This document shows, in pieces, positions 19,801 through 55,039 of a stretch of DNA of 64,000 bases. The position numbers were made by a program, and so were the translations under genes. The first letter of the stretch is position 1. Each line of letters begins with the position of its first letter. The notes under the pieces were generated by a model that made no database searches, had not been told where the DNA came from, and saw only the letters and a program-made list of their open reading frames with translations. The stretch is from Plebeiibacterium marinum (GTDB lineage: Bacteria > Bacteroidota > Bacteroidia > Bacteroidales > Marinilabiliaceae): the NCBI RefSeq assembly GCF_026013615.1, contig NZ_JAPDPI010000010.1:62001-126000 (forward strand). Direction: 5' to 3'.

Positions 19801-19977
19801 TTTTAAAATTTAATTTTTGTAAAACCATTTACACATAACGCAACTAGGATATTAGCCACGTTTGTCAATTATACTATTCTAACATTAAAAATTCTTATTC
19901 TCGTTTGCTCCCTTTTAAATATGACCATTTGTAGATAACCTGACACAGTTATTGTTTTATTATAAAAAACTCGATTT

Positions 19978-38406: not shown

Positions 38407-39783
38407 TTATTTCTTCCTTCTTAGAGACAGCTCGTTGGTAATTCCGAGCATATAATTATCGGTAAGTTTATATAATAACAGCAAGGCACCTGACAATCCG
38501 GCGGTAATTCCCGGAAAAACACTTATCATCAAGCGAATACCCTCTAAGGATCTGGCTGTTTGTTCAGCATTTGCTTCAAAACCATATGTTCCCAGAATAT
38601 ATAAAGGAAGGACTCCCCCTGCCATCAGACCTAATTTCTGCGACATGGATGAAGACGAGAACAGCAGACCTGTTGCCCTGCGTCCGGTTTTCCATTCTGA
38701 ATAATCGGCAATATCGGCATACATCGACCAAACAAGAGGCAACACAATTCCGGCACTAATTCCGTTTATAAGATTCAAGACAAAAATCAAGAACACCTGT
38801 TGCGGATTCAACCAATACAATAAAACACTAAGTATGGCAGATAAAAACATGGCTATAATAAAGGTATTTTTCTTTCCAATCCGGTTTGACACCGGGATCG
38901 CCAGCAAAACACCCAACATATTGGCCACCAACCATATCGTCATGTACATACCCGACAGCTTTCCCCAGCTCACATCACCCAAAACAGGCAACGTTTGATC
39001 TTGCACAAAATACTTAAAGTAATACATTATACTGGACTCCCTGAAGGTTAAAAACACAAGCATTAAAACCCCGGCTCCAAGCATGATAAACCATTGTGCG
39101 TTTTTAGCCAGGTCTTTTAAATCACTCCACACAGAGTTGTTTTCTTTAATGGCTTTTACATGCTCCTTTGTCCATAGATAAGTCATCACAAAAAAGAAAG
39201 CCGCAACAACAGCATAGATTGTAACCATATATTGGTAGCTTTTTGCATCACTCGCCCCTGCATTTTTAAAGAATTCCAGAATAAAAGGTGCTGAAGCCGT
39301 CATGGCAATACCCCCGGAATAGGCACCTATAAACCTGAAGGAAGCTAAACTGGTACGTTCTTTTGGGTTGTCCGTCATAACTGCCATTAAGGAACCATAG
39401 GGAACATTGATTGCCGTATACACCATCATCATTAAGGTATATGTAATGTAAGCATATATCAATTTGCCCGATGGCCCAAACTCCGGAACGGAAAATGTGA
39501 GTACTCCGATTATTCCAAAAGGTATGGCTATCCATAAAAGGTAAGGACGAAACTTTCCTTTTGAGGTGTTAGTCCTGTCGGAAATAATACCCATCAACGG
39601 ATCGTTTAATCCGTCCCATAACCTTACCATGATAAACATAAATGCTACCGATTCCGGCGACAGCTCAACTATATCTGTATAGAAGAACGTCAGGTACATG
39701 GCAAATATCTTCCAGAACATGGAAGATGCAAAGTCACCAAACCCGTAACCTATTTTTTCTTTAATATGTAGTTTTCCTGACAT
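38407..39783 (-). CDS. GPH-family sugar:cation symporter (PUL B)
   Basis: Inner-membrane MFS transporter of the glycoside-pentoside-hexuronide type, 458 aa, about 12 membrane segments. Family marks: KIGYGFGDFASSMFW at the N-terminus, RLWDGLNDPLMGIISDRT (the GPH loop 2-3 signature) and GKFRPYLLW after it. It lies between the epimerase (25 bp) and GH27, matching the known Bacteroides fragilis-type mannan locus where this symporter brings mannobiose into the cytoplasm. The substrate is inferred from the adjacent epimerase and GH130. Cation use is a family property. Confidence 0.93.
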   Translation of the reverse strand: MSGKLHIKEKIGYGFGDFASSMFWKIFAMYLTFFYTDIVELSPESVAFMFIMVRLWDGLNDPLMGIISDRTNTSKGKFRPYLLWIAIPFGIIGVLTFSVPEFGPSGKLIYAYITYTLMMMVYTAINVPYGSLMAVMTDNPKERTSLASFRFIGAYSGGIAMTASAPFILEFFKNAGASDAKSYQYMVTIYAVVAAFFFVMTYLWTKEHVKAIKENNSVWSDLKDLAKNAQWFIMLGAGVLMLVFLTFRESSIMYYFKYFVQDQTLPVLGDVSWGKLSGMYMTIWLVANMLGVLLAIPVSNRIGKKNTFIIAMFLSAILSVLLYWLNPQQVFLIFVLNLINGISAGIVLPLVWSMYADIADYSEWKTGRRATGLLFSSSSMSQKLGLMAGGVLPLYILGTYGFEANAEQTARSLEGIRLMISVFPGITAGLSGALLLLYKLTDNYMLGITNELSLRRKK

Positions 39784-39808: not shown

Positions 39809-41041
39809 TCAATTATTTAATTTCCCTATGCGCACAATAAATTCCATCAAAGCCCTGCAATTGTGATAAGGACATTTCCAAAAGCCTACTTTATCTTCTT
39901 CAATATGCGGAACCCCTTTTTCGTTTACACTCCAGTACCATTCCCCGTTCACTTTATCAACCAGCTTATTTTTAATAAATTTCCATAGCTTTTCAATCGC
40001 AAACAAATAATCTTTATTTCCTGAAATTTCCCAGGCATCAAACAGACCTACCATGGCTTCTGCCTGTGGCCACCAATGCTTATCTGTATCTAAATGATCA
40101 CCATCCTTTTCATTAAATAAAGAACCATCTTTATCTACCCCTTCTTCCAAAGTAATATAGACAAGGTTTAATGCTGTTTGCTGTACACTTCTTATTATTT
40201 TTTCATCGCCTGTTACTTCTGCTGCCTCATGCATCAGCCAGGCACCTTCAATATCATGTCCAAATGAAATAGCTTTAGACTTTTGAGACCAGTCCATATC
40301 AAAAAACAAATTAAAATGGCCGGTCTTTTTATCAATAATTTTATCCTGAAATATCTTAATAAGTGATATGATACTTTGCTTTAACTGCAGATCTGGCCAA
40401 ATACGGTACAAATTTGCATAGGGCTCAAGAATATGTAAATGGGTGTTCATCGATTTGGGCAAGTTGGCATCTTTATCGCTAAGTCGCATATCTTCAAGTT
40501 TTGACCAGTCCCTTTTTAAGGCTTCGATATAACCACCATGTTCCTTGTCCCAATATTTATTCTCGATAATATAATATAACTGCCGGGCATATTCCAATGC
40601 CTGGGCATTACCTGTTGCCCTGTTGTATTCGGCCAGGGCATATATCCCAAATCCCTGTGCATAAGTCTGTTTCCTGTCACTCGCTACATTTCCCTTATAA
40701 TCTAAAGCCCATACAAAACCTCCATCTTTCTTGTCCCAAAACTGATTTATCAGATAATGAAAAGCCAAATCGGCTATATCCTTATAATTTTCTTGTTTGG
40801 TTATTCGATAAGCAGCCGCAAAAGTCCACAAAATACGTGCATTCAACACAACACCTTTTATTGCCTTGGGATATTTATTTCCAAAATGATCAATTCTACC
40901 AATAAACCCTCCATGAACATGATCTATCGCAACACTACTCCAATAATTCAAAAGTCGCGTTAGTTCAGCCTTCATTTCCTCGCTCAAGGCCAACATATCC
41001 GACTTGATTATTTCGTCTTTTAATTCTATTATTTTGCTCAT
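39809..41041 (-). CDS. AGE-family mannobiose (cellobiose) 2-epimerase
   Basis: Converts beta-1,4-mannobiose to 4-O-beta-mannosyl-glucose in the cytoplasm (no signal peptide). It is an (alpha/alpha)6 barrel of 410 aa, the usual length. Conserved motifs include HGGFIGRID (~42), NARILWTFAAAYR (~68), FGHDIEGAWL (~242) and HWWPQAEAMVGLFDAW (~310), with a late CPYHNCRALME; these contain the catalytic and substrate-binding His residues of the family. Sitting between GH130 and the symporter, it completes the known epimerase-phosphorylase mannan pathway. Cellobiose as substrate cannot be excluded from sequence alone, but context favours mannobiose. Confidence 0.93.
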   Translation of the reverse strand: MSKIIELKDEIIKSDMLALSEEMKAELTRLLNYWSSVAIDHVHGGFIGRIDHFGNKYPKAIKGVVLNARILWTFAAAYRITKQENYKDIADLAFHYLINQFWDKKDGGFVWALDYKGNVASDRKQTYAQGFGIYALAEYNRATGNAQALEYARQLYYIIENKYWDKEHGGYIEALKRDWSKLEDMRLSDKDANLPKSMNTHLHILEPYANLYRIWPDLQLKQSIISLIKIFQDKIIDKKTGHFNLFFDMDWSQKSKAISFGHDIEGAWLMHEAAEVTGDEKIIRSVQQTALNLVYITLEEGVDKDGSLFNEKDGDHLDTDKHWWPQAEAMVGLFDAWEISGNKDYLFAIEKLWKFIKNKLVDKVNGEWYWSVNEKGVPHIEEDKVGFWKCPYHNCRALMEFIVRIGKLNN

Positions 41042-41138: not shown

Positions 41139-42341
41139 CTAAATCATTTTTATGAATTCGTTATTCTTATCAATTAGTTCATTAATGGTTTCCACAGAAA
41201 GGTGCGAATGCAATTTATCCTGAGGAGAATTGATACAGTAATCAACCAATTGTTCTACTGTTGATGTAGCTACATGCATTCTTGTATCAGAAGATGCATA
41301 ATAGATATACACTTTCCTCTGCCCATCAGGCAGACAGGCATCATCATCTGTTATCCAGCCATTGGCAAATACAACATTGGATACATCACCCACTCTTTCC
41401 TCTTTTAAAGGAGCTATAAAATGCCCATGTGGTTTATGCGTTACAATCCACGGTTTTTCTAAATCTGTCATAAACAGGTACAGAGTATATCTTAAACCTG
41501 CTGCTGTATTACGCACCCCATGAGCCAGTTGCAACCATCCATGTTCCGTTTTAATGGGAGCAGGCCCTAAACCATTTTTTACTTCATAAATAGTGTGATA
41601 AGTCTTTGCATCAACAATTACCTCCTCTTTTACTTCCGGGTTTTCAATAGTTTCAGATAATCCAAAACCAACACCCCCTCCTTTACCTGTATCAATAAAT
41701 CCATCTTGAGGACGGGTATAGAAAGCATATTTACCTTCAATCAAATGGGGAAACAATACTACGTTACGCTGCTGCCCGCTGGTAGAAATTAAGTCAGGAA
41801 GTCTTTCCCACTCCACCAAATCTTTTGTCCTGGCAATTCCTGCTGCAGCAACTGCGCTGGAAGTATCGCCTTCCGGAGCATTAGGATCTTTGCGCTCAGT
41901 ACAAAATACGCCATAGATATAACCATCATCATGCTGCGTTAAACGCATATCGTACACATTGATATCCGGGTTTTCGGTTTGGGGCAAGGTGATCGGGCGA
42001 TCCCAGAATTTAAAGTTATCGATTCCGTTAGGACTTTCTGCTACAGCAAAAAATGATTTACGGTCGTTCCCCTCTACACGAACAACCAACAGGTATTTAC
42101 CATTTATTTTAATAGCTCCGGAATTCAAAGTTGCATTAAAACCTATGCGCTCCATTAAAAAAGGATTGGTTTCTTTGTTTAAATCATACCGCCAATGCAA
42201 GGGAATATGGTCCCTTGTTATAATCGGATTTTTAAAGCGCGCATAAACCCCGTTCACACTAAATTCCTCTTCATTCTTCTTCTCAATTAAGGTTTTATGC
42301 TCTGCCTTAATTCTTTTCAACCTATCTTCAAACAATTGCAT
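41139..42341 (-). CDS. GH130 4-O-beta-D-mannosyl-D-glucose phosphorylase
   Basis: Cytoplasmic phosphorylase that splits mannosyl-glucose to alpha-mannose-1-phosphate and glucose. No signal peptide; five-bladed propeller of 400 aa, the length of subfamily GH130_1. Signature stretches: ARFKNPIITRDHIPLHWRYD (~34), GFNATLNSGAI (~68), the catalytic-Asp region NVYDMRLTQHDDGYIYGVF (~128), FPHLIEGKYAFYTRPQDG and a C-terminal ASSDTRMHVATSTVEQL. The 36-bp gap to the GH26 upstream and the epimerase downstream match the characterised Bacteroides fragilis mannan operon. GH130_1 specificity is inferred from these motifs and from the epimerase next door. Confidence 0.94.
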   Translation of the reverse strand: MQLFEDRLKRIKAEHKTLIEKKNEEEFSVNGVYARFKNPIITRDHIPLHWRYDLNKETNPFLMERIGFNATLNSGAIKINGKYLLVVRVEGNDRKSFFAVAESPNGIDNFKFWDRPITLPQTENPDINVYDMRLTQHDDGYIYGVFCTERKDPNAPEGDTSSAVAAAGIARTKDLVEWERLPDLISTSGQQRNVVLFPHLIEGKYAFYTRPQDGFIDTGKGGGVGFGLSETIENPEVKEEVIVDAKTYHTIYEVKNGLGPAPIKTEHGWLQLAHGVRNTAAGLRYTLYLFMTDLEKPWIVTHKPHGHFIAPLKEERVGDVSNVVFANGWITDDDACLPDGQRKVYIYYASSDTRMHVATSTVEQLVDYCINSPQDKLHSHLSVETINELIDKNNEFIKMI

Positions 42342-42377: not shown

Positions 42378-43490
42378 CTACTTTTCACCTAACCCTTTAT
42401 AATCTTTCAGCAACAAAATATTTTTCCCTGCACAAAATGCTTTGGCATCCTCCTCTGCAGGATGGCCGGGATAAGGAAAAAAGAAATGTACTTTAGGATC
42501 GTTGCGCCAAACCATGGCATAACTAAGCTCCCTGCTGATGATTGAATCGTTTAATACTTTGCCCAGCTTTTGTGTAAACCATACCGAATCGGTAACATTG
42601 TCAAGACCGGTTTCGGTTAATGCTGCCAGTTTATTCTTTACATTTGCTAAATGAATAATGGTATGTAACTTATCGATTACCACTGTTTCTCCATTCTCCA
42701 TTTTAAAATCATGATAGTTGTCCAAACCAAGAATATCAACAACATCATCACCCGGATACCAGGTAAGGTATTCATCCTCACCGCTAAAATTTCTATCGGG
42801 AGAGTAGGCAACTGCCATGTTCGACAATCCTTTTATATCCCTTAAATATTCAATAGTAAAACGGAATAATTTCTTAAACTCATCTGAAGAACAAGCTTTG
42901 CTTCCCCACCAGAACCAATCGCCATCCATCTCGTGCCAGGGGCGAAAAATAAACGGAATCGCATTTCCTTTTTCATCTTTTAAAGAAGTAAAGAAGTTTG
43001 CTACTATATCCAGCTGCTTTTTAAAAGCTTCATGATATGCACCTCCCGGTAAAATGTGTTTTACTACTACAGAATCACCATTCCATGCACTCACGGTGTC
43101 AATCACGGAATAAGGATGCCAGCTAAAAGTATTCACACCTCCTTTATCATGTCCCCAGATGGCCAACCTCTTGATTGCAGAAAAAGGCACGCTATCTAAA
43201 TTATGGGTATGATTAAATTCAATACCTCCAAGTTCCCAACCAAATAAGGCGGGGTAATCACCGGTAACCCTATTCACATCTGATTCACCATCGATATAAC
43301 TCCATTGCATACCATAGGCCAAATCATCCTGATGACCAAAAAGAATACCTTCTCCCTTTATTGATTTTAGTGTTTCAATAATTGGGTTTTCTTTACTTAC
43401 AACACCTTTCTTTACAGTAGTCTGGCAAGAGAAAAATGACATTGTTGATACCAGCAAACCGTAGGTTATATTTTTAAATTTCATTTTCAA
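42378..43490 (-). CDS. GH26 lipoprotein, mannobiohydrolase-like (PUL B)
   Basis: Paralogue of the GH26 at 17130-18239 with almost the same length (370 aa) and matching motifs throughout. Lipobox Cys ~22 (SFFSCQTT). The acid/base Glu is ~187 in FRPWHEMDGDWFWWG and the nucleophile Glu ~293 in ALTETGLDN. It lies 20 bp after the PKD-GH26 gene and 36 bp before GH130. Release of mannobiose, exactly what the next enzymes use, is inferred from similarity to exo-acting GH26 enzymes and from this gene order. Periplasm-facing attachment is plausible. Confidence 0.94.
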   Translation of the reverse strand: MKMKFKNITYGLLVSTMSFFSCQTTVKKGVVSKENPIIETLKSIKGEGILFGHQDDLAYGMQWSYIDGESDVNRVTGDYPALFGWELGGIEFNHTHNLDSVPFSAIKRLAIWGHDKGGVNTFSWHPYSVIDTVSAWNGDSVVVKHILPGGAYHEAFKKQLDIVANFFTSLKDEKGNAIPFIFRPWHEMDGDWFWWGSKACSSDEFKKLFRFTIEYLRDIKGLSNMAVAYSPDRNFSGEDEYLTWYPGDDVVDILGLDNYHDFKMENGETVVIDKLHTIIHLANVKNKLAALTETGLDNVTDSVWFTQKLGKVLNDSIISRELSYAMVWRNDPKVHFFFPYPGHPAEEDAKAFCAGKNILLLKDYKGLGEK

Positions 43491-43510: not shown

Positions 43511-45451
43511 TTAATCATAGATATTCAGTTCCTTAACATCTTCCTGAAACAGGGTTAGCTGATCATTCTTAAATAAAATGAATTCATCTTTTGCATTTTG
43601 AGGACTATCGCTATTAGGTATATACAGATCGCTTTGTGAGCTTGTCCATGGGGCATTAAACCATGCCAAAACCCATGCAATTCGGATGTCGTCAGAACCT
43701 TCTTTTATGGCATCTAAAACATTATCGTTCCAAAACTCCGGCTTGGTATTGATGTAATCATTACGATATCCGGTTTCGGCCAGAACAGCTATTTTGTTAT
43801 GCTCTAAAGCAAATGAAGAAAGATCTACAAGTGAACTTTTCAATGTAGCTTTTGTGGGTTCATAAATATCAACTCCCACTATATCTACATAAGCATCACC
43901 CGGATAGTAACTTTCATCTAAAGGATAATTGGGCGACCATGCAAACAACACCAAATCAGATTTTTCTTTGATGTAATCAACAGCCAACTGATAAAAATTT
44001 ATGTATAAATCACTGCTATGGTAGGTGGCTTCACTTCCCCACCAAAACCAGCCTCCACCCATTTCATGGTAAAGTCGCCAAACAACAGGAAACCCAAGAT
44101 CATTATTTATGATATCAATAATGGCATCCAACTCTTCATAAAACCAGATACGTGCCCCGTTATTGTTGTTTACGATATCGTACAGCAAAGTTTTATCTGT
44201 TTCCCATGTAATTTCGCTCATATATATCTTATTATCGGTACGGCTTTGCTGATGAAAATCAAAAGTCACCACTGCCCCATTTTGATAAGCCTCCTTCGCT
44301 TCATCAATATGTAATTGCTTTTCCGTGTCAGACTTGTAGAGCATATAATGAGGATCGATACCATAAACTCCTGGATGATCACCGGTGACATCCTTACAAT
44401 CAGAAGTAGTTAAATCGTAACTGAGTGCGTTTAATTTAAACGACAGGGGAAATTCCTGACCGAAGATAAATTGGTCACTATTGGCAATATTCCCCAGGTT
44501 GCTTAGCAAATTTTTAGTTTCCTGAGTTGCATTTTCATCAATGGGCACATAACTGCCCGACATAAGCACATTTATTACAACCTCGTCACTGGCCGTTGCT
44601 CCTGCTGCATCTGTTACCGTAAGGGTAATTGTATATTCACCTTCAGACAAAGCAACCTCTGCTGTTTTTATTGTTGCTAGTGTTTCGCTTCCATTATTCC
44701 ACTCGTAAGCAGCTATTTCTCCTTCCACATCCGAAGACCCGGTAGCATCTAAGCTTACCAAAGCACTTGAACTTCCCTGGGGGATATAATACGTTTTATC
44801 TTCCCCTGCATCGGCTACCGGCAATACGTTATCTGCTTCTGTTATAGTAACCGTGTAGCTTTTTTCTTTGTTGGCCGATTGTAATTTATATGATAATGGA
44901 TTTGTAAAATCATTGGTTGTTTCTTCCGACACCTGCTTAACATCACCTATAAACAGTTCTGATTCTTCAGATACCGTAAACTTTGCAGTTAATACAGATA
45001 AATCACTACCATATAAAACCGTTGCCGTAATATTGTTTTCGTCAATAGAAAAAATAGTATTGGGTAATTCAACAATACTGTAGCTTTTAATAACTATATC
45101 TGTGTAAATGATTACTGTATATTCATTTGTAGTTCCATCTTCCGCTACTATACGATACACTACTTCATCCGAGAAATCCTTTTTTGTATAACCCGAACCT
45201 TGTACTTGCATGCCTACATATGCTTTAGCCCCCTGTGATATAGTAAAAACAGCCGTTAAACTACTCAGACTTGTACCATCCAGCACTGTTGCTTCTATCT
45301 TATTTTCGGCAGTTATTGCAAATTCAATATCAGGTAGTTCCTCTATAGCAAACTCCTCTATAATGGCCAGGCTACTTTTTGCTTCTTCTTTTTTGCATGA
45401 AAAAGAAAAAAACAACAGAACGATAACCATTACACACCCAAAATATCTCAT
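43511..45451 (-). CDS. GH26 endo-mannanase lipoprotein with two beta-sandwich and one PKD domain
   Basis: I start at the ATG at 45451, not the further Met at 45520, because only this gives a clean lipoprotein signal with lipobox Cys ~19 (FFSFSCKKE). Order (646 aa): two related ~90-residue DUF5018/cadherin-like sandwiches (~27-118 and ~120-205; both with IEATVLDGTSLSSLTAVF- or ITATVLYGSDLSVLTAKF-like cores), a PKD domain (~212-296, PVADAGEDKTYYIPQGSSS) and a GH26 barrel (~305-646). The acid/base Glu is ~463 in WRLYHEMGGGWFWWG and the nucleophile Glu ~559 in VLAETGYRND. The long Ig-like stalk fits a cell-surface endo-mannanase. It follows the SGBP after a hairpin. Confidence 0.9.
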   Translation of the reverse strand: MRYFGCVMVIVLLFFSFSCKKEEAKSSLAIIEEFAIEELPDIEFAITAENKIEATVLDGTSLSSLTAVFTISQGAKAYVGMQVQGSGYTKKDFSDEVVYRIVAEDGTTNEYTVIIYTDIVIKSYSIVELPNTIFSIDENNITATVLYGSDLSVLTAKFTVSEESELFIGDVKQVSEETTNDFTNPLSYKLQSANKEKSYTVTITEADNVLPVADAGEDKTYYIPQGSSSALVSLDATGSSDVEGEIAAYEWNNGSETLATIKTAEVALSEGEYTITLTVTDAAGATASDEVVINVLMSGSYVPIDENATQETKNLLSNLGNIANSDQFIFGQEFPLSFKLNALSYDLTTSDCKDVTGDHPGVYGIDPHYMLYKSDTEKQLHIDEAKEAYQNGAVVTFDFHQQSRTDNKIYMSEITWETDKTLLYDIVNNNNGARIWFYEELDAIIDIINNDLGFPVVWRLYHEMGGGWFWWGSEATYHSSDLYINFYQLAVDYIKEKSDLVLFAWSPNYPLDESYYPGDAYVDIVGVDIYEPTKATLKSSLVDLSSFALEHNKIAVLAETGYRNDYINTKPEFWNDNVLDAIKEGSDDIRIAWVLAWFNAPWTSSQSDLYIPNSDSPQNAKDEFILFKNDQLTLFQEDVKELNIYD

Positions 45452-45588
45452 ACAATTATTTTTTTTGATTATATGTTCATTTATCGAACAGAAAGGAAAT
45501 AACAAGATAGATGCACCCAATTGTGAGTCAACTCCTATTATAATATCAGTTATCTGTTTCTTGCCAGAATATGATTAAACTTTCTAAA

Positions 45589-45642: not shown

Positions 45643-47343
45643 CTACCACATTGGACCATCAGTGATATAAACATCATCGATACTTATTTCATAGGTGCCG
45701 CTTTCTACATTACCTGTAGTAAATCCAAATTTCACATAATCAATGGCAACTGAAGGGTCAAATTCAGATGCGTCACCTCCCCAATTACCTAAAATATCAG
45801 AAAGCCTAAGCGAAACAGGTTCCCAACCGGATGTCTCTATGTAGTAATTGACATTATCAATACTACCTCCCCATTTCGTGTCATTCTGATAGGTTTCCAC
45901 CTGAATCATTCCTTTATTTCCATTGGTGTTAGCAATGAAACTAATATGAGGATCTGACATAGAACTCAAATCAATGGAATTATAGTTACCTATTGCTCCC
46001 ATCCAATTCCATGATCCCGGTACATTATCAACCTTAACAGTATAATAGCCCTCTCCTGCTCCTAAATCAATATCGGCCACATTTAATCCATAGCTGGCTC
46101 CTGCCACATTCTCTTCCCAGGTTGGTTCTGCATCTTCAAAATCAAAGACCTTAGCAACCGGGTTTACAGGACCATCTGTAATCATAATCTGATCCACATG
46201 AATCTCAAAATCTTCAGGATCTCCATTTGCCACATTACCGGTAATAAAACGCATGGCTACATCGTCAAACACTCCTGTAGCATTAAAGTCGACAAATAAC
46301 TTTTCAATTGGATATGAACGCCATTCCCATCCATCAGTTTGAACTGCATAATCGTCACCATATTTTAATCCTTCATTGGCATTGGCATTTGTTAAATGAT
46401 TATCCTTTTCACTGCCCCCCTGAGTCATAAATGGATTAATATATCCTCGTTTGCCGTTTGTATTTACAAGGAAGGTAATATTTGGCTCATGAAATTCCGA
46501 CAAGTCAACAGACTGTCCGTACCTGATATAGAAATATGTTTTCCATCCTGAAGTTTCACCATTATTAATCACAGAATAATAATGGTTTCCACGAGCTTTT
46601 GTAAGTCCGCCAAGATTTAGACCCGCTTGCTGAGGTGCATTCTCAACATCTTGCATCACAGGCTCGCCTGATTCAAAATCCCAAAGAATAATGGGTGCAG
46701 CAGGTTCAAACACATCCGTTGGCTCCTCAATAGGAATGCCGGATCTTTGATTATCTGCAATCTCACCAAGCCCTTCGATGACTATCGTAGCTGTTTCCCC
46801 GGGAACAAGGACCAACCCTGCTGTTGGCACAGTAATTTTTCCTGTTTCGGAAGGATTTGAGATGGATACAACTTGTTCATTGATGGAAACAGACGTAATT
46901 AAATCCACATTATCCCCTTCTATAGTAAAAGCCTCTCCGGAAACAATTTTATTTGGCCATCCGGTTACAACAACATCAGGATAACTTACTTTTATGGTTG
47001 CATCCTCATATGAATATTCCCGGTCATACAAGTTTGTTAACGAAAGAAACCCTGTTGTTGCCCTGCGTCCAACTACAAATTGAATTTGACTTTCTGTTGC
47101 AGAACCCTCTACAACAACACACTCTCTTCCTGACAGATAGACTTTATGAACTTTATCCAGGTTACTTCCTGAAACCGTTACTACATCGTCAATCATCACG
47201 TCATCAGCACTTATGGAATTTATGGTTGACACAGGCCATTCTATATCAAAATCTTCACCCCATTGTTTGTCCTCACAGCCAGAAATAAATACCATCATGG
47301 CTGCAAAAACAAGTAGATATATAACTTGATTCATCTTCTTCAT
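45643..47343 (-). CDS. Surface glycan-binding lipoprotein with TIG domains and two C-terminal sandwich repeats (PUL B)
   Basis: Non-catalytic surface protein, 566 aa. Lipobox Cys ~23 (VFISGCEDK). Two TIG/IPT-like domains (~38-205) are followed by two tandem ~165-residue beta-sandwiches (~218-395 and ~398-566) that align with each other: ILWDFESGEPVMQDVENAP with KVFDFEDAEPTWEENVAGA; FLVNTNGKRGYI with FIANTNGNKGMI; HVDQIMITDGP with SIDDVYITDGP. Such a duplication would give two glycan sites. It lies 16 bp after SusD. Mannan binding is inferred from context. The start could be Met-4 instead. Confidence 0.86.
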   Translation of the reverse strand: MKKMNQVIYLLVFAAMMVFISGCEDKQWGEDFDIEWPVSTINSISADDVMIDDVVTVSGSNLDKVHKVYLSGRECVVVEGSATESQIQFVVGRRATTGFLSLTNLYDREYSYEDATIKVSYPDVVVTGWPNKIVSGEAFTIEGDNVDLITSVSINEQVVSISNPSETGKITVPTAGLVLVPGETATIVIEGLGEIADNQRSGIPIEEPTDVFEPAAPIILWDFESGEPVMQDVENAPQQAGLNLGGLTKARGNHYYSVINNGETSGWKTYFYIRYGQSVDLSEFHEPNITFLVNTNGKRGYINPFMTQGGSEKDNHLTNANANEGLKYGDDYAVQTDGWEWRSYPIEKLFVDFNATGVFDDVAMRFITGNVANGDPEDFEIHVDQIMITDGPVNPVAKVFDFEDAEPTWEENVAGASYGLNVADIDLGAGEGYYTVKVDNVPGSWNWMGAIGNYNSIDLSSMSDPHISFIANTNGNKGMIQVETYQNDTKWGGSIDNVNYYIETSGWEPVSLRLSDILGNWGGDASEFDPSVAIDYVKFGFTTGNVESGTYEISIDDVYITDGPMW

Positions 47344-47359
47344 AACAATTTAGATTTTA

Positions 47360-49015
47360 TTAGTATCCATTATTTTGTTGTAGCCCCCAATCCTGAACCT
47401 CAGATAACGGAATAGGTAACAAGGGTACTTTATTTCCGTTAGGACCATCGATACATTTAGGTAAACAATTCCCTCTTAAATCAACATTTTCATAGCGAAG
47501 GGTTGAACCATCCGATACAGTAAAAGTTGCCTTTTTAAGATCAAGGACATCAAAATAATTACCAGTCCTCACCAAATCCCAGTAACGGAATCCTTCAACA
47601 GCCAATTCAATCCTTCTTTCGTGATAAATATCCTCAAGCAAATCCTCTCCCGACGAGGTGATTTCTGGTAGATTTCCACTAAATCCGGTTACAACATAAG
47701 ACAACTCACCTTCTATTGAACCTTTGGCGTATGTACTGGTTCTTGCTCTTGATCTAATTGCTTCGAGCATTGTTTTCGCTGTGGTTTCATCTCCCAGGTG
47801 ATATGATGCTTCGGCATGCATCAATAAAACCTCGGCATAACGCGCCTTACGTATATTAGCCGGACTACTGGTGCTGTTAGAAGGTCGGTATCCTGGCTCC
47901 AGGGCTGCTTTCCTGCTTAGATAAGGAGTCATTTGCTGACTTAAATCAAATTCCTGAGTAACACCATGAACTACACCACCTTGAATACTCTCACCATACA
48001 AACTACAACTTAAACGAGGATCATTGTCTTCATAAGCATCAAATAAATTAACTGTAGGATTGTTGAATCCCCAACCCCAATCCATCCTGTTACCCTGGAA
48101 CTGATTGCTGTTTGTACCTGTTTTACCAGGGGCTGTACCTGTAGAACCCACTTCCATTTGCAATTCAAAAATGGACTCTGAATTATTCTCTCCTTCCATT
48201 TCAAAAATGGTGGCATAATTGCTTACTAAGGTATACTCATTACTTGATATCACTGCATTTGTCTGATCAAACACATCCTGCCAAGTTGCCTCTCCCAGTG
48301 CATCCATACCAATTTGATACATTAATGCCCGGGCAAGGAATGTACGTGCAGCTCCTTTTGTTGCACGTCCTAAATCGGTTGAACCATAAGCACTTTTTTC
48401 AGGGAGCAAGTCAACTGCTGCAGTAAAATCAGCAATAACCTGCTCAAATGTTTCATGATAAGAGGCCCTGTCAATCTGGCCAAATTGCTCAGGTGTTACA
48501 GGGGTTGTAAACACAGGTACCCCACCAAATACTTTAACCAGGTAGAAGTAAAAGTAGCCCCTGATAAAAGATGCCTCACCTTTAAGCCTGTTCAGCAAAT
48601 CTTCATCCAACTCACTGTTTTCTAACTGAAGCAACACATTATTTGCCCGGTAAATACCATCGTAACATTTAATCCAAAGCGAAACAACAATTGGGTTATC
48701 ACTTGTTGTCCTCCATTCTATAATATCTTGTATTTCGGTAAAGTCAGCTTCTGTACTGCCTTTTTCAGAATCATCGCTCAGCAGATCGCCAAAGAACCAC
48801 TCGTAATTGTGAGTTAACCATTGATCATCCGGTCCGGGACCTTCTGTCATACCAATCAAATCATAACATGCATTAACAGCGTACACTGCATTTTCCGGAG
48901 TATCAAAGAAATTACTTTCAGTTTCCGCAGCAATAGGGTCAACTTCTAAAAAATCAGAGCAACTACTAATTAATAAAGTCAGCCCCAATAACCATATTGA
49001 ATAAAATATTTTCAT
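47360..49015 (-). CDS. SusD/RagB family outer-membrane lipoprotein (PUL B)
   Basis: Binding partner of the SusC encoded 20 bp upstream. Lipobox Cys ~19 (TLLISSCSD) followed by DFLEVDPIAAETESNFF. Further SusD marks: GEASFIRGYFYFYLVKVFGG (~142), YHERRIELAVEGFRYWDLVR (~485) and C-terminal PLLPIPLSEVQDWGLQQN. The length, 551 aa, is normal. A role in uptake of manno-oligosaccharides follows from the locus. Confidence 0.95.
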   Translation of the reverse strand: MKIFYSIWLLGLTLLISSCSDFLEVDPIAAETESNFFDTPENAVYAVNACYDLIGMTEGPGPDDQWLTHNYEWFFGDLLSDDSEKGSTEADFTEIQDIIEWRTTSDNPIVVSLWIKCYDGIYRANNVLLQLENSELDEDLLNRLKGEASFIRGYFYFYLVKVFGGVPVFTTPVTPEQFGQIDRASYHETFEQVIADFTAAVDLLPEKSAYGSTDLGRATKGAARTFLARALMYQIGMDALGEATWQDVFDQTNAVISSNEYTLVSNYATIFEMEGENNSESIFELQMEVGSTGTAPGKTGTNSNQFQGNRMDWGWGFNNPTVNLFDAYEDNDPRLSCSLYGESIQGGVVHGVTQEFDLSQQMTPYLSRKAALEPGYRPSNSTSSPANIRKARYAEVLLMHAEASYHLGDETTAKTMLEAIRSRARTSTYAKGSIEGELSYVVTGFSGNLPEITSSGEDLLEDIYHERRIELAVEGFRYWDLVRTGNYFDVLDLKKATFTVSDGSTLRYENVDLRGNCLPKCIDGPNGNKVPLLPIPLSEVQDWGLQQNNGY

Positions 49016-49035: not shown

Positions 49036-52000
49036 TTAAAAAGTGATATTAATACCTCCGGTTAATATTGTAGGTATTGGATAAGTAGCACCATCAACAC
49101 CGGCACGAAGGGCATCCCCCTGGAAATTTCCAATTTCCGGATTCCAGCCAGAATAGTCTGTAAGCGTAAACAGGTTATCCGCAGAACAGTAAATTCTTAG
49201 TTTTGAAAGACCTATTTTACTAACCAGGTTTTTAGGCAGCGTATATCCTAACTGCAGGTTTCTTAACCGAAGATATGTACCATCCTCAACATATCGGTCT
49301 GAGAAACGGTCGTTATTGTTCGGATCGCTGGCGGTCATTCTTGGTTCATTGTTTTCCGGAGTTTCTGCAGTCCAACGCTTTAATCGATCTGTGGAATAAT
49401 TTGACAAAACACCCCCTGTTTGATACCAGAATGCAGGTCCGTTTACAATTTCATTACCCACTGACGCATAAAAGAAGGCTTTAAAATCGAATCCTTTATA
49501 TCCCATGGTAATATTTAAGCCGGCAGTAAAATCCGGAAAAGCACTACCTAATTTTACCAGGTCGTTATCATCAATAACACCATCTTCATGAGAATCAACA
49601 AACTTCACATCACCCAGTTGTGCTTTTTCACCCGGCAGCATGGCCAGATACTCATCCAGTTCCTGTTGTGTATTGATAATCCCATCGGTTTTCATTCCAT
49701 AAAAATAGGCCAGCTCGTCCCCTTCCACAGTGCGGGTTGTTGATGTAAAACCAGATACTCCATCATCTCTCAGTTCTCCCCCTTCTGCCATTTTGGTAAC
49801 TTCATTTTTTACCGTACTAATATTTAAGCCAACAGAATACTGAAACCCTGAATCAAACTGTTCTCTCCATGTTAAAGCCACATCATAACCAATATTTTCC
49901 ATTGAAGCGGCATTTACATATGGACGTTGAGCTCCTACGTAATAAGGAATCGGAGCATCCATTAACATGTCCTTAGTTTTCCTGTTAAAATAATCCAACG
50001 ACACATCCAGTCTTTGATTTAAAAAACTCAGGTCAACACCAATGTTGGTCTGATCAGAAGTTTCCCATTTTAAATCGGGGTTTGCCAAACGTTTAGCCAC
50101 AGCTCCATCAACAATGGAACCTCCAAAAACATAAGTATACCCATTAACCATTGTCGTTACGTAGTTAAAGTTACCTGCCGACTGCTCATTACCTACCTGT
50201 CCCCAACCTGCACGAACTTTAAATCTATCCAGAAAATCCACATTTTGCATAAAAGCCTCTTCCTTCACGTTCCATCCTGCAGAAAATGATGGAAACACTC
50301 CCCATTTGTTGTCATCAAGAAACTTAGATGATCCATCTGCACGAACAGTTGCTGTAAACAAATAACGGCTTTTATATGAATAATTAGCCCTTGCAAAATA
50401 CGACAGCAAGGTATTTTTAGATGCACCTCCATTAATCTCCATCATATCAACATTGGTGGCAAGTCCCAGGTACATTAAGTCTTTATTTGAAGAAACCCCG
50501 TAACCCCTTGCAGAAATATCATTTGAAGAAAAAACCTGGGCTTCTGCCCCTGCCATTGCATTGATACTATGATCACCAGACACCTTATTGTAGTTGAAGT
50601 AGCCATTCCAGGTATAATTGATCATTTGTTCCCTCTCCTCATACAATTCACTTTCATCACGCTTTTGATCCACATCCGCATAATAGGCTGGAGAATAAAT
50701 CTTTTCGCTATTAAACTTTAAATCAGCGCCAAACATAGTAGTAAAGCTCAAACCTTCAAGAAATAAATCATCCACCTTTAAATTAAAATTACCTACAATC
50801 TTATGATCTCCCCTGGTTTGATATTTTGCTTCATCAATAAACCTTGCAGGATTACCAAGTACAGTACCTCCAATAACACGACTTCCGTAATCATTTTTAT
50901 AATCATCCCAGGCCGCAGTTAATGGATCAATCTGCAACGCCACAGGCAATGCCCCGGTCCATGCATTATCATTATGAATATTCTTTTTGTAAGTTGAATA
51001 CGCAATTTTTGCACCCACTTTTACTTTCTTACTTATTTTATACTCATTGTTTGCCCACAAGAACAACTTATCCATTCCACTATTATCAACAATACCCTCT
51101 TGCTGAAAAAAGGTAGCTCCTACATTATAACTTACATTTTCGCTACCGCCCCGTATTGAAAGATTGTAGTTTTGAATAGGTGCGACCTGTAGCAATTCAT
51201 CCTGCCAATCCGTTCCTTTCAGGTTGTTATTGATAACATAATTAAGCTTAGCCATATCAGACTCTGAAATCAAACTCAGCTTATTATCATTTTCGTAGGC
51301 CTCTAACCGAAGGGTTGCATATTCCGAAGAATTAGTCAAATCTATTGTATTATTAACATACTGAACCCCGGCAAAAGCATTTGCTTCAATAACTGCTTTA
51401 CCTGACTTACCTTGTTTTGTAGTTACCAATACAACACCATTAGCTCCCCTTGAACCATAAATCGCTGTTGCAGAAGCATCTTTTAATATTTCGATACTTT
51501 GAATATTTGAAGGATCCAGATTACTAATATCATTGGTTGGAAAACCATCCACCACATAAATAGGGTTACTTTCGCCCCAGGAACCAACACCACGGATCCT
51601 GATTTTTACACCAGATCCAGGTTCTCCGGAATTGGCCACCACATCAACACCGGCCACTTTACCTTGTAACGTTTGCACAACATCAGTAGTCGCTACCTGT
51701 TGAAGATCATCACCTCCAACTTTTGATACCGCACCGGTTAAATCACTTTTTCTGATAGTACCATATCCAACTACCACCACTTCATCAATATCCTGTACGG
51801 AAGCTACCATTGTAACATTTATGTTTAAACTCCCTTCCACCTTAACTTCCTGGGTATCATAACCAATAAATGAGAAGACTAAAACCTTTTCTCCATCCCC
51901 TATTGATAATAGATAATTACCATCAATATCTGTAATAGTACCATTGGTTGTACCTTTTACAACTATTGATACGCCCGGCAAAGACTCTCCTGTTGAATCT

Positions 52001-52095
52001 ATTACCTTTCCGCTAATTGATCGCTGCTGGGCTTTAGCAACCCAAAATGCCGAAAGCATAAACAGCATCATAAAAATTCGCAGACCACTTTTCAT
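49036..52095 (-). CDS. SusC/RagA TonB-dependent transporter (PUL B)
   Basis: First gene of PUL B. Order: signal peptide (~1-22), CarboxypepD_reg domain (RSISGKVIDSTGESLPGVSI), TonB box (IDEVVVVGYGT), plug (~110-230, ending GSRGANGVVLVTTKQGK) and a beta-barrel ending ILTGGINITF. The length, 1019 aa, is typical. A promoter with both -33 and -7 boxes lies 70-101 bp upstream, directly behind a repeated element shared with the divergent araC-type gene, so direct activation by that regulator is likely. Mannan oligosaccharides are the inferred cargo. Confidence 0.95.
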   Translation of the reverse strand: MKSGLRIFMMLFMLSAFWVAKAQQRSISGKVIDSTGESLPGVSIVVKGTTNGTITDIDGNYLLSIGDGEKVLVFSFIGYDTQEVKVEGSLNINVTMVASVQDIDEVVVVGYGTIRKSDLTGAVSKVGGDDLQQVATTDVVQTLQGKVAGVDVVANSGEPGSGVKIRIRGVGSWGESNPIYVVDGFPTNDISNLDPSNIQSIEILKDASATAIYGSRGANGVVLVTTKQGKSGKAVIEANAFAGVQYVNNTIDLTNSSEYATLRLEAYENDNKLSLISESDMAKLNYVINNNLKGTDWQDELLQVAPIQNYNLSIRGGSENVSYNVGATFFQQEGIVDNSGMDKLFLWANNEYKISKKVKVGAKIAYSTYKKNIHNDNAWTGALPVALQIDPLTAAWDDYKNDYGSRVIGGTVLGNPARFIDEAKYQTRGDHKIVGNFNLKVDDLFLEGLSFTTMFGADLKFNSEKIYSPAYYADVDQKRDESELYEEREQMINYTWNGYFNYNKVSGDHSINAMAGAEAQVFSSNDISARGYGVSSNKDLMYLGLATNVDMMEINGGASKNTLLSYFARANYSYKSRYLFTATVRADGSSKFLDDNKWGVFPSFSAGWNVKEEAFMQNVDFLDRFKVRAGWGQVGNEQSAGNFNYVTTMVNGYTYVFGGSIVDGAVAKRLANPDLKWETSDQTNIGVDLSFLNQRLDVSLDYFNRKTKDMLMDAPIPYYVGAQRPYVNAASMENIGYDVALTWREQFDSGFQYSVGLNISTVKNEVTKMAEGGELRDDGVSGFTSTTRTVEGDELAYFYGMKTDGIINTQQELDEYLAMLPGEKAQLGDVKFVDSHEDGVIDDNDLVKLGSAFPDFTAGLNITMGYKGFDFKAFFYASVGNEIVNGPAFWYQTGGVLSNYSTDRLKRWTAETPENNEPRMTASDPNNNDRFSDRYVEDGTYLRLRNLQLGYTLPKNLVSKIGLSKLRIYCSADNLFTLTDYSGWNPEIGNFQGDALRAGVDGATYPIPTILTGGINITF

Positions 52096-52164
52096 AAATA
52101 CTTGTTTTAAAAAGATTTAATTATACCTTGATTCAATCTGATTTCCGGAAATAAATCATCAATA

Positions 52165-52196
52165 CAAAAATATATCCTATCAACACCCTTATCAAA
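52165..52196 (-). promoter_or_regulatory. Promoter of PUL B (-33 and -7 boxes)
   Basis: On the minus strand TTTG (52193-52196) is followed after 20 bp by TATTTTTG (52165-52172). This matches the Bacteroidota consensus TTTG, about 19 bp, then TAnnTTTG. Transcription would start near 52158, giving a leader of about 63 nt. The operator copy 52201-52230 lies 4 bp upstream of the -33 box. Confidence 0.65.
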
Positions 52197-52200
52197 TAGT

Positions 52201-52230
52201 TTTATATCACTTAATGATACTTTTTTATCA
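52201..52230 (-). promoter_or_regulatory. Candidate operator, copy 1 (PUL B side)
   Basis: TTTATATCA (52201-52209), one base, then TTAATGATACTTTTTTATCA (52211-52230). The second part contains the inverted pair TGATA-N6-TATCA. It abuts the -33 box of PUL B, the usual place for an AraC-type activator. A second copy is at 52396-52436. Confidence 0.6.
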
Positions 52231-52395
52231 AATATATTTCACTTACCATTAACACATATTACCTTTTAAAAAATCAACAACCTCTAACAAAACACTCTTA
52301 TTCCTTTCTCACAGCCACTTAGGATCTTTTTAAGAAATTAAAACACTGCGCTTTTATACACTTTTTAACTTTTGTCAGTGAATTATTTTTATATT

Positions 52396-52436
52396 TTTAT
52401 ATCATATCATCATTTTTTAATGATACTTTTATATCA
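52396..52436 (+). promoter_or_regulatory. Candidate operator, copy 2 (araC side)
   Basis: TTTATATCA (52396-52404), then 12 bases, then TTAATGATACTTTTATATCA (52417-52436), which differs from copy 1 at one base in 20. It ends 29 bp before the araC-type start codon, so it could serve autoregulation. The spacer is 11 bp longer than in copy 1, about one helical turn. Confidence 0.6.
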
Positions 52437-52465
52437 TCTTCAAAATACCAATAGAACATATCACC

Positions 52466-53344
52466 ATGAAAGATCAAATTCACCGCGAAATAACTCCATT
52501 AAAAGAGAATGATTGTTTTTTAATATTTGACAGAGAAAGAAAAGGTTTTACTTTCCCGATTCATTTTCATCCAGAATTTGAGATCAACTACATAGCTAAT
52601 GCAGTTGGGGCCAAACGGGTTGTAGGGGACCATATTGGAGAAGCTGAAGAACGAGAATTGGTTATGGTTGGCCCTAACCTTTACCATGGGTGGGAAAATG
52701 GAAACTATAATCCGAACGATATGCTTCACGAAATAACAATACAGTTTCCTCGCGAACTATTTGACGAAGCGCTATTCAACCGCAACCTCCTAAAACCCAT
52801 AAAAGAACTTTTTGGGAACGCAAACCGGGGTATTCTTTTTTCACAGGACACTATCAGACTTATTGAACCCAAATTACTGGAACTTAGTAAAAAAAGAGGA
52901 TTTGACAGCTTCCTGGAATTCCAATCACTACTATACGACCTGGCAATTTCGCGCGACCAGCAATTATTAACCAACGTAGCTTTTCAGCGCCAAAGTGACT
53001 TCCACAACAGCGAACGTATAGAAACTGTATATAATTATATTAAAGAAAACTATGCTTTAAAACTGAAAGTTGAAGATGCAGCACAGCTCGTCAACATGTC
53101 TGTCGTTTCCTTTAGTCGCTTAATAAAGCAACGCACCGGAAAATCATTTGTTGATTTTGTTAACGAGATAAGATTAGGAATTGCCACCAGGTCACTTATT
53201 GAAACCAACAAAAGTGTTTCTGAAATTTGTTTTGAATGTGGTTTTAACAACATATCCAATTTTAACAGAATCTTCAGAAAGAAACAGAATTGTACACCAA
53301 GTGAATTCAGGACAAATTTCACCGGGGTCAGGAACGTTCTTTAA
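52466..53344 (+). CDS. AraC-family regulator with cupin sensor, divergent to PUL B
   Basis: 292 aa, cytoplasmic. The N-terminal cupin-like domain (~1-140; FPIHFHPEFEINYI carries the usual His/Glu pattern, then GPNLYHGW) would bind a sugar. The C-terminal AraC double HTH (~190-285) shows AAQLVNMSVVSFSRLIKQRT and ends CGFNNISNFNRIFRKKQNC, then TPSEFR. It diverges from SusC of PUL B across a 370-bp region with two copies of one element, so it is the likely regulator of PUL B and of itself. Use of a soluble AraC sensor in place of an HTCS implies a cytoplasmic inducer such as mannobiose, mannosyl-glucose or mannose; that is inference. Confidence 0.93.
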   Translation: MKDQIHREITPLKENDCFLIFDRERKGFTFPIHFHPEFEINYIANAVGAKRVVGDHIGEAEERELVMVGPNLYHGWENGNYNPNDMLHEITIQFPRELFDEALFNRNLLKPIKELFGNANRGILFSQDTIRLIEPKLLELSKKRGFDSFLEFQSLLYDLAISRDQQLLTNVAFQRQSDFHNSERIETVYNYIKENYALKLKVEDAAQLVNMSVVSFSRLIKQRTGKSFVDFVNEIRLGIATRSLIETNKSVSEICFECGFNNISNFNRIFRKKQNCTPSEFRTNFTGVRNVL

Positions 53345-53388: not shown

Positions 53389-54909
53389 TTATTTCAGCCC
53401 TTTCATCATCTTTTTAAGCCATGGGCTTATCAAAAACAATATAACCGCAGCAAAGGCTGTTTCTATAGCGATAAACCAAAATACGGGAACTTCTCTGCCC
53501 AAAGAGGCGCCAATACTGTGAGATATAGCCTTCATTTGTGAAGCAAACAGGTTACCGGCTGCTATGGATCCCATCCATACTCCCATCATGGTGGAGACAA
53601 TTTTAACGGGGGAAAGCTTGGTAATCATGGAAAGCCCGATAGGCGACAGGCATAATTCCCCCCATGTATGAATTACAAATACAGTAATTAACCACATAGG
53701 GTTTATCAATACAGATCCTTTTTGAGTCAAGTCATTGGCATAAGCCATTACTACAAAACCCAAACTCAACAGCACAATACCCCATGCAAACTTGAGTGGC
53801 GTATTGGGATTAAGTTTTACAGCATCTAAACGAACCCACAACACACTAAATACAGGCGCAAAAACAACAATTGAAATAGCGCTCACCATTTGAAACCATG
53901 CAGTAGGAATAGTCCAGCCTCCAATAGTTCTGTCCAGGTTATCACGGGCAAAAAGGTTAAAAAGTCCGCCAGCCTGCTCATAACCGCTCCAAAAAACAAT
54001 GTTAAACACCACCAGCACCAAAATGACCCCTACCCGGCTCCATTCTGTTTTACCTTTTGTATTTCGGATGATATCTTGCAATAAATAAAGAGCTCCCAAA
54101 ATCAATACGCCATATACAAACACATTTCTTGTTGTGGCCGGAACTAACTTACCGAGTAAAACACCTCCAACTACCATTACTACAATGGCAACTACATAAA
54201 CTAATACATCAATATTATCCTTTGCTGTTAGCTTACTCTTTTGTCCTTTATATTTGGGAGGCATCCCTGCCGTTCCCAATTCTGAACGCGACAGGTAAAA
54301 CCACAGAAATCCAATGATCATTCCTAAAGCTGCAGCAAAGAAACCATATTGCCATTTTCCAAACAGATCATTTTCCACCAACCATCCTGTAACAAATGGC
54401 CCCAACATTGCCCCCACATTAATGCCCATATAAAAAATAGTAAAAGCTCCATCCCTACGTTGGTCATTTGCATCATACAACTCTCCCACAAGGGTGGAAA
54501 TATTGGGCTTAAAAAAACCATTACCGAATATAAGAATACCCAGCCCCATATAAAACACATTTTCTTTTAAGCCTATATTGTGGCCCGAAACAATGGCTGA
54601 GTATGCCAGCAATACCTGACCAATAGCCATAGTCAACGCCCCTATGTATATGGTTTTACGTTGACCTAAAAACTTATCAGCCAAAATGCCACCTAAAATT
54701 GGGGTTATATAAACCAACGAAGTAAAAATACCGTATATTATCAAAGCAGAATCGGTATCCATTCCAAATCCACCACTTGCCAGGTTTCCTGTTAAAAAAA
54801 CAATCAGCAATGCGCGCATCCCATAATAATTGAAACGCTCCCACATTTCTGTTGCAGAGAGCGTAAATAAAGCTTTAGGATGTCCTAAAAAAGTTTTTTC
54901 CTTTACCAT
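53389..54909 (-). CDS. POT/PTR2-family di-/tripeptide transporter
   Basis: Proton-coupled peptide symporter in the inner membrane, 506 aa, ~12-14 membrane segments. The POT signature EMWERFNYYG (ExxERFxYY) is at ~20, and FTIFYMGINVGAMLGPFVTG (the PTR2 signature) follows at ~150. The FIHTWGELCLSPIGLSMI segment near the C-terminus is also typical. It is followed 130 bp upstream by two Xaa-Pro peptidase genes, so imported Pro-containing peptides are a plausible cargo. It converges on the araC-type gene and is not part of PUL B. Confidence 0.94.
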   Translation of the reverse strand: MVKEKTFLGHPKALFTLSATEMWERFNYYGMRALLIVFLTGNLASGGFGMDTDSALIIYGIFTSLVYITPILGGILADKFLGQRKTIYIGALTMAIGQVLLAYSAIVSGHNIGLKENVFYMGLGILIFGNGFFKPNISTLVGELYDANDQRRDGAFTIFYMGINVGAMLGPFVTGWLVENDLFGKWQYGFFAAALGMIIGFLWFYLSRSELGTAGMPPKYKGQKSKLTAKDNIDVLVYVVAIVVMVVGGVLLGKLVPATTRNVFVYGVLILGALYLLQDIIRNTKGKTEWSRVGVILVLVVFNIVFWSGYEQAGGLFNLFARDNLDRTIGGWTIPTAWFQMVSAISIVVFAPVFSVLWVRLDAVKLNPNTPLKFAWGIVLLSLGFVVMAYANDLTQKGSVLINPMWLITVFVIHTWGELCLSPIGLSMITKLSPVKIVSTMMGVWMGSIAAGNLFASQMKAISHSIGASLGREVPVFWFIAIETAFAAVILFLISPWLKKMMKGLK

Positions 54910-55039
54910 TACAATTTATTTAGGATGCTAAAAATAGCAAATCATTTTTTTAGTAAAACAATTACCAAGCGGCAAATCAATAGTCCTTCAAGATCATGAC
55001 CGCCATAGCCATTCAAATACTATTTTGTCAAATATCTTA

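Follow-up and report, generated by a model that had tools for sequence, protein, structure and literature searches.

The window (the whole 64-kb stretch of DNA that was analysed) contains a divergent region at 52096-52465, with susC of a PUL, here called PUL B, on its minus-strand side and a gene for a 292-amino-acid AraC-family regulator on its plus-strand side. PUL B starts with the susC homolog (49036-52095, TIGR04056, E 2e-283). The minus strand then carries a susD homolog (47360-49015, SusD_RagB, E 6.7e-35), a surface-protein-like gene matching no Pfam family (45643-47343), a GH26 gene of the mannanase family with a PKD-like domain (43511-45520, Glyco_hydro_26, E 1.8e-33), another GH26 gene (42378-43490, Glyco_hydro_26, E 8.6e-40) and a member of the GH130 mannoside phosphorylase family (41139-42341, Glyco_hydro_130, E 2.3e-22). 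Next on the same strand are a cellobiose/mannobiose 2-epimerase-like gene (39809-41041), whose best NCBIfam match was EpiA at 378 bits, below the cut-off of 800, and an ORF for a transporter (38407-39783), which we take from its look to be of the MFS type and whose homologs adjoin the ortholog's PUL. The predicted gene content of PUL B is a beta-mannan set. A second mannan-like locus, PUL A (14641-35663; susC, susD, several GH26, GH27), lies next to a full HTCS gene (31623-35663). PUL A has none of the regulatory modules described below, and the two adjoining loci appear to answer to regulators of different kinds.

The regulator (52466-53344, plus strand) matched Pfam HTH_18 (E 1.7e-22) and HTH_AraC (E 5.5e-18). 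Pfam found HTH domains only in the 292 residues, with no family over the N-terminal domain and no kinase or receiver domains, so the protein is not an HTCS. As predicted by AlphaFold (mean pLDDT 85.1, pTM 0.69, alignment of 34 sequences), it consists of an N-terminal jelly roll (strands 19-94), presumably for sugar binding and dimerisation, linking helices (101-160) and two HTH motifs. When the model was searched with Foldseek, the DNA-binding domain matched AraC (2k9s; TM 0.80 of target, 27% identity) and the N-terminal domain matched the regulatory domain of RhaR (5u93; TM 0.64 of target). Over the full length, the model matched regulators of the AraC family, ToxT among them (TM 0.53 of query). 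The two predicted AraC-type HTH motifs and the modelled N-terminal jelly roll, as in AraC and RhaR, place the regulator in the AraC/XylS family.

The initial annotation had described a bipartite repeated operator in this region, a half-site followed by a 20-mer. All its numbers were reproduced by direct reading. Copy 1 is TTTATATCA (52201-52209), 1 bp and TTAATGATACTTTTTTATCA (52211-52230), and copy 2 is TTTATATCA (52396-52404), 12 bp and TTAATGATACTTTTATATCA (52417-52436). The two 20-mers differ at one of 20 bases and their starts are 206 bp apart, and 29 bp lie between the end of copy 2 at 52436 and the regulator ATG at 52466. With up to three mismatches, the pattern matched the 64-kb window at these two places only (0.09 matches expected), and two matches were obtained in 0 of 100 shuffles. 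With no mismatch allowed, they were the only matches in the whole 5.62-Mb assembly. At up to three mismatches the assembly gave 18 matches versus 11 for the reversed control, so the looser matches mean little. The repeat itself is thus confirmed as real and above chance, but not the anatomy given to it. In both copies TTTATATCA forms the 3' portion of a complete box, CAAATAGTTTTATATCA (52193-52209) in copy 1 and TTTATATTTTTATATCA (52388-52404) in copy 2. The structure is therefore box-box, with periods of 21 bp and 32 bp, and not half-site plus 20-mer.

The repeated unit is a box of about 17 bp, approximately ATDRTAYTATTNTATCA. It was learned from the 450 bp upstream of 44 distinct regulator orthologs of at least 64% identity, 18 pairs of identical duplicates having been removed before orthologs were counted. 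Unguided expectation-maximisation on these 44 regions returned a 17-bp box, ATTATACTATTTTATCA at its simplest, of 16.4 bits, with a log-likelihood of 261 compared with 61-74 in 12 shuffled sets. Shuffles were dinucleotide-preserving or first-order Markov draws, and five per-cent shuffle figures come from small sets (12 shuffled sets). The orthologs are related to each other, so counts among them are not independent. A held-out matrix was then built from 37 orthologs, none of them of the window's genus; its matches in these 37 are no test. Over all positions and both strands of the 64 kb, this matrix ranked 52214-52230 first, 52420-52436 third and 52388-52404 eighth (ninth with smoothing). The second rank fell to 20106-20122, inside a GH26 gene, and the fourth to 19868-19884, before a GH27 gene. 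Seventy-eight more distant homologs (37-61% identity, many from Flavobacteriaceae, all outside the training) were taken as a second set. An unprompted search of this set alone gave the same box, and the held-out matrix exceeded 10 bits in 42 of the 78, where 1.5 were expected. The pattern to which the initial annotation had drawn attention is thus conserved upstream of homologous regulators, at the 44 orthologs and again at the 78 distant homologs.

A palindromic operator was also considered, since an inverted repeat, the dyad TGATA-N6-TATCA, can be read in the two strong boxes. It was dropped: the motif learned from orthologs is asymmetric, and the second element is a same-strand repeat. With one mismatch, the dyad occurred 13 times in the window versus 5.5 times in shuffles.

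At the susC promoter the boxes stand in tandem, both on the plus strand. Box II (52214-52230, core 52218-52230) is strong and promoter-distal, with 16.9 bits. Box I (52193-52209, core 52197-52209), 21 bp away, is promoter-proximal and weak, with 5.1 bits by the held-out matrix. The single-position chance at that score is 0.0015, and the box I score falls below zero in some orthologs. The -7 promoter element of susC (52165-52172) reads TATTTTTG on the minus strand, where the consensus is TAnnTTTG (-7/-33 promoter consensus as given in excerpts of PMC7366714). Core I starts 32 bp on from this element, at 52197, and core II at 52218. The -33-like element of susC, TTTG on the minus strand at 52193-52196, overlaps the first bases of box I. 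The initial annotation was thus right to place copy 1 at the -33 element of this promoter, which is the position of an activator. The spacing of copy 1 from the -7 element is fixed.

Evidence for this fixed spacing comes from the 35 boxes located more than 125 bp from araC in the orthologs, the susC/PUL-side set. When all offsets around these boxes were compared, a second box peaked at -21 bp (z 8.8). CAAAnnTA, which is TAnnTTTG on the other strand, stood exactly -49 bp from the strong-box start at 15 of the 35 sites. We defined a module from this arrangement: CAAAnnTA (the -7 element), 24 bp, core, 8 bp, core, with 28 fixed positions. With up to four mismatches allowed, 21 of the 44 orthologs had the module upstream of the regulator, where shuffles gave an expectation of 0.0, and the other 23 had no match there. 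Box II outscored box I in 17 of the 21, the exceptions being L011, L015, L032 and L092. The bases at the -33 place in these 21 were CAAG in 11, CAAA in 3, CAAC in 3 and others in 4; a -33 motif was not found in Flavobacterium johnsoniae, according to excerpts of PMC7366714. A candidate operator of direct repeats spaced by about 21 bp is thus present at copy 1 and at orthologous PUL promoters, whereas copy 2 has 32 bp instead.

The strong box of copy 2 (52420-52436, plus strand), which ends 29 bp before the araC start, is the presumed autorepression site. An upstream box (52388-52404, plus strand) of 12.3 bits stands 32 bp from it and overlaps a -7-like sequence, TATATTTT (52390-52397). Twenty-seven of the 44 orthologs have an araC-side box scoring at least 9, outside the module and within 125 bp of the start codon. 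In 18 of the 44, TAnnTTTG stands 22-28 bp beyond the start of this box, so that the box covers the -33 region and spacer of an araC-ward promoter, a repressor position. The autoregulatory role that had been suggested for copy 2 fits this placement in 18 orthologs, as far as promoters can be predicted. No TAnnTTTG follows the araC-side box in the window's genus, and the araC promoter there is consequently unplaced. One ortholog (L015) has TACTTTTG before the box instead, and another (L010), with a regulator 91% identical, has no scoring araC-side box. The box is retained where the module is elsewhere, for example in L019, L020 and L038-L040, which indicates that each site can act without the other.

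The gene divergent from araC in the fetched neighbourhoods was susC in five loci (L150, L151, L155-L157) and a GH26-GH130 operon in L152-L154, L158, L162, L072-L074, L076, L078 and L089. Scanning 71 genomes of the family at up to three mismatches, we found 38 modules in 30 genomes, and the reversed control gave 0. Thirty-four of the 38 precede homologs of susC (23), GH26 (10) or GH130 (1) on the expected strand. The remaining four precede a SASA-family esterase gene, a GH43 gene, a UDP-glucose dehydrogenase gene, where the match is probably due to chance, and a contig end. Judged by position, araC is not adjacent to 22 of the modules, and 18 of these 22 still precede susC, GH26 or GH130 homologs. 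In three genomes of one genus (loci L296, L297 and L298, genus g7), the module lies within a conserved extended sequence, GACTAATACTATTTTATCC..., before an unlinked susC homolog of 34-36% identity, which is likely to be a further member of the predicted regulon.

The module follows the regulator across the family. Of the 34 genomes whose ortholog is close (68% or more), 24 had the module. It was also present in 4 of 14 genomes with an ortholog of 44-53% identity and in 2 of 23 where none exceeded 40% (Fisher p 7e-5, uncorrected for kinship). Nine genomes (G021-G024, G037, G038, G040, G042 and G053) lack it upstream of the regulator and have it elsewhere in the genome. One of these, G053, has a regulator without an upstream box and carries the module between araC and the susC downstream of araC. 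Nine of the 34 close-ortholog genomes (G001-G005, G025, G036, G039 and G041) have no module at up to three mismatches, and G048, of the window's genus, has it at four mismatches only. In G036, an HTCS gene is located between the araC ortholog and a tandem site beside susC (L235), and that tandem site is without CAAAnnTA. Among 395 genomes of the phylum, seven had the module at up to two mismatches, one of them being the window. The other six all adjoin an araC homolog of 40-49% identity, with susC next in five.

The tandem pattern taken without the -7 box is a noisy predictor. At up to two mismatches it was found in 40 of 71 genomes, compared with 8 matches in 8 genomes for the control. Of 40 loci that were fetched and inspected, eight had CAAAnnTA in place, all before susC or GH130 homologs, one of them (L252) inside a predicted frame. 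The rest mostly have no PUL gene downstream, as is also the case for most matches away from araC. Within the window's own genome (G000), the module at up to three mismatches occurs once, at PUL B, and none was found at PUL A. The tandem pattern at up to three mismatches matched this genome 8 times, equal to the 8 of the reversed control; the window copy was alone at zero mismatches, the pattern having been composed with that copy in view. Single boxes gave 110 matches versus 73 for the control and are therefore uninformative for the regulon of this genome.

We consider it probable (about 0.8) that the repeat comprises the operators of the one-component AraC protein encoded next to it, which would activate the mannan genes from the tandem site and repress itself from the other. 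The proposal that the copies are operator-like sites of this regulator is well supported by the held-out ranks, by the conservation of the box and by the co-occurrence of module and ortholog. An inducer-bound dimer would fill box I and box II, direct repeats 21 bp or two helical turns apart, and would contact RNA polymerase at -33, switching on the mannan operon of PUL B. The regulator at the site before its own gene would limit its own synthesis. The inducer may be a manno-oligosaccharide, a guess made from the enzymes of the PUL. Binding, activation and autorepression are what we infer from the sites, their geometry, their conservation and their co-occurrence with the regulator. Against this reading stand the nine close-ortholog genomes without the module and the weakness of box I.

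A rival model, built on the initial annotation, is a bipartite operator that tolerates a one-turn change of spacer; copy 1 would serve for activation, and a DNA loop to copy 2 would bring about autorepression. The periods of 21 and 32 bp do differ by about one turn, and a box like 52388-52404 would arise by chance in a 23-position stretch with a probability of 0.00125. The 206 bp between the copies resemble the loop of the ara system. However, while 21 bp recurs at mannan promoters, 32 bp is not kept at the araC side: L011 has a second box scoring at least 9 at 24 bp, L072 has one at 23 bp, and such a box is lacking in most orthologs. With these spacings, and with the overlap of the upstream box with the -7-like sequence, we do not accept the one-turn change as a conserved feature. 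As to looping, site-to-site distances in 14 orthologs range from 151 to 230 bp. A helical repeat of 10.5 bp gave them no shared phase (Rayleigh p about 0.30). A repeat of 11.0 bp gave a nominal phase, which speaks for the loop (p 0.008, uncorrected for the four periods tried and with near-identical sequences counted). Many orthologs do not have the two sites side by side, and as seen above the sites can work apart. We regard the looping operator as improbable. One might also suppose that the boxes serve another regulator with an AraC-type domain, such as an HTCS, and that the AraC protein has its sites in other places. The direct repeats bound by HTCSs have an average spacing of 21 bp (excerpts of PMC3878776), and HTCS genes are found in the window (31623-35663) and near some orthologs. 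Yet the box stands upstream of AraC homologs down to 37-61% identity, module and ortholog go together across genomes (the module is in 28 of 48 genomes with the ortholog versus 2 of 23 without), and no module was found at PUL A, which adjoins the window's HTCS gene. It would be surprising if such a regulator were the one that reads the boxes. That there is no operator here at all, and that the copies are AT-rich repeats of low complexity or stem from an ancestral duplication between the genes, agrees with the AT-rich region and the short shared segment. This is hardly credible against the held-out prediction, the fixed promoter spacing and the occurrence before unlinked PUL genes. A bolder extension of the operator reading is that one box pair has two registers in this species, 21 bp for activation and about 32 bp, or three turns, at the own promoter, so that a flexible dimer would read spacing as a switch, and that the cassette of -7 element and tandem boxes is a portable module between PUL genes across Bacteroidota. 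We think this rather unlikely, though conceivable.

Like araI1-araI2 of E. coli, in which direct-repeat boxes of about 17 bp have a 21-bp period with the weak box over -35 and the strong box upstream, copy 1 has a weak box over -33 and a strong box one 21-bp period upstream (5.1 and 16.9 bits). The regulator also resembles E. coli AraC in being a one-component protein with modelled jelly-roll and two-HTH domains. The locus is unlike the E. coli system in the sequence of the box, in the TAnnTTTG-type promoter, in having a susC/GH26 operon as target and in that a phased loop is unsupported. AraC-family members are the main group binding direct repeats, according to excerpts of PMC9723621.

Bacteroides HTCSs combine an AraC-type HTH, direct repeats averaging 21 bp and control of SusC/SusD PULs (Ravcheev et al. 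2013, PMC3878776, in excerpt). The present locus shares these three features with HTCS regulons at the level of layout. HTCSs are membrane sensors with kinase and receiver domains, unlike the 292-residue regulator, which by Pfam has neither. The claim that the locus departs from the HTCS control common for mannan loci is fair as regards the protein. However, the excerpted sources already give an AraC-type protein in a beta-mannan PUL (PMC9860051) and repeats of about 21 bp for HTCSs (PMC3878776). This published AraC-type protein is FG28_RS02325 of Muricauda sp. MAR_2010_75, in a PUL with GH26, GH130 and SusC/D. According to the same excerpts of PMC9860051, the proteins of this PUL, the HTCS excepted, rose on galactomannan; a binding site for FG28_RS02325 is not among what they describe. 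Our regulator is like FG28_RS02325 in being an AraC-type protein inside a beta-mannan PUL, a likeness at the level of description. FG28_RS02325 may be an ortholog of the regulator; Flagellimonas pacifica (L087) carries one at 69%. CgrA (ZGAL_3159) of Zobellia galactanivorans, an AraC-family positive regulator of the carrageenan PUL whose deletion slows growth on carrageenan (PMC5698469, in excerpt), is likewise, by description, an AraC-family regulator of a marine PUL. Unlike PUL B, the CgrA cluster is for carrageenan and, in the excerpted text of PMC5698469, is without susCD; an operator for CgrA does not appear in that text.

In a search of open-access literature, mostly at the level of titles and listings, we met with no binding site described for a mannan-PUL regulator of AraC type from Bacteroidota. 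Switches of this kind are known, and this particular one appears to be undescribed. PUL control in these groups has mostly been described through HTCSs. Here a candidate binding site and a regulon rule are given for a one-component AraC protein of mannan PULs in Marinilabiliaceae, of which Flavobacteriaceae have a more remote version. By this rule (CAAAnnTA, 24 bp, core, 8 bp, core), PUL genes can be predicted to belong to the regulon also where the regulator gene lies elsewhere. It also offers a likely layout for an activator-dependent TAnnTTTG promoter, in which the activator box lies over a poorly conserved -33 element.

Some further features were seen in the window. The box-like sequence ATTATACTATTCTAACA at 19868-19884 precedes the GH27 gene of PUL A (18592-19800). 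It has no partner at -21 and, by eye, no fitting -7 box, and it was not counted in the regulon; it could be a lone site or chance. Another box-like sequence, CAAATACTATTTTGTCA (55014-55030, 11.4 bits), precedes a transporter gene (53389-54909) named by eye as POT-type. The expected susC leader contains GATTTCCGGAAATAAATC (52140-52157), with the perfect palindrome ATTTCCGGAAAT. This is possibly another operator or an RNA feature. TTTCCGGAAA of this leader occurs once in the own genome at up to two mismatches. It is absent from L017 and stands at the same place in 5 of 44 orthologs (L009, L010, L011, L015 and L016), all of them susC-divergent.
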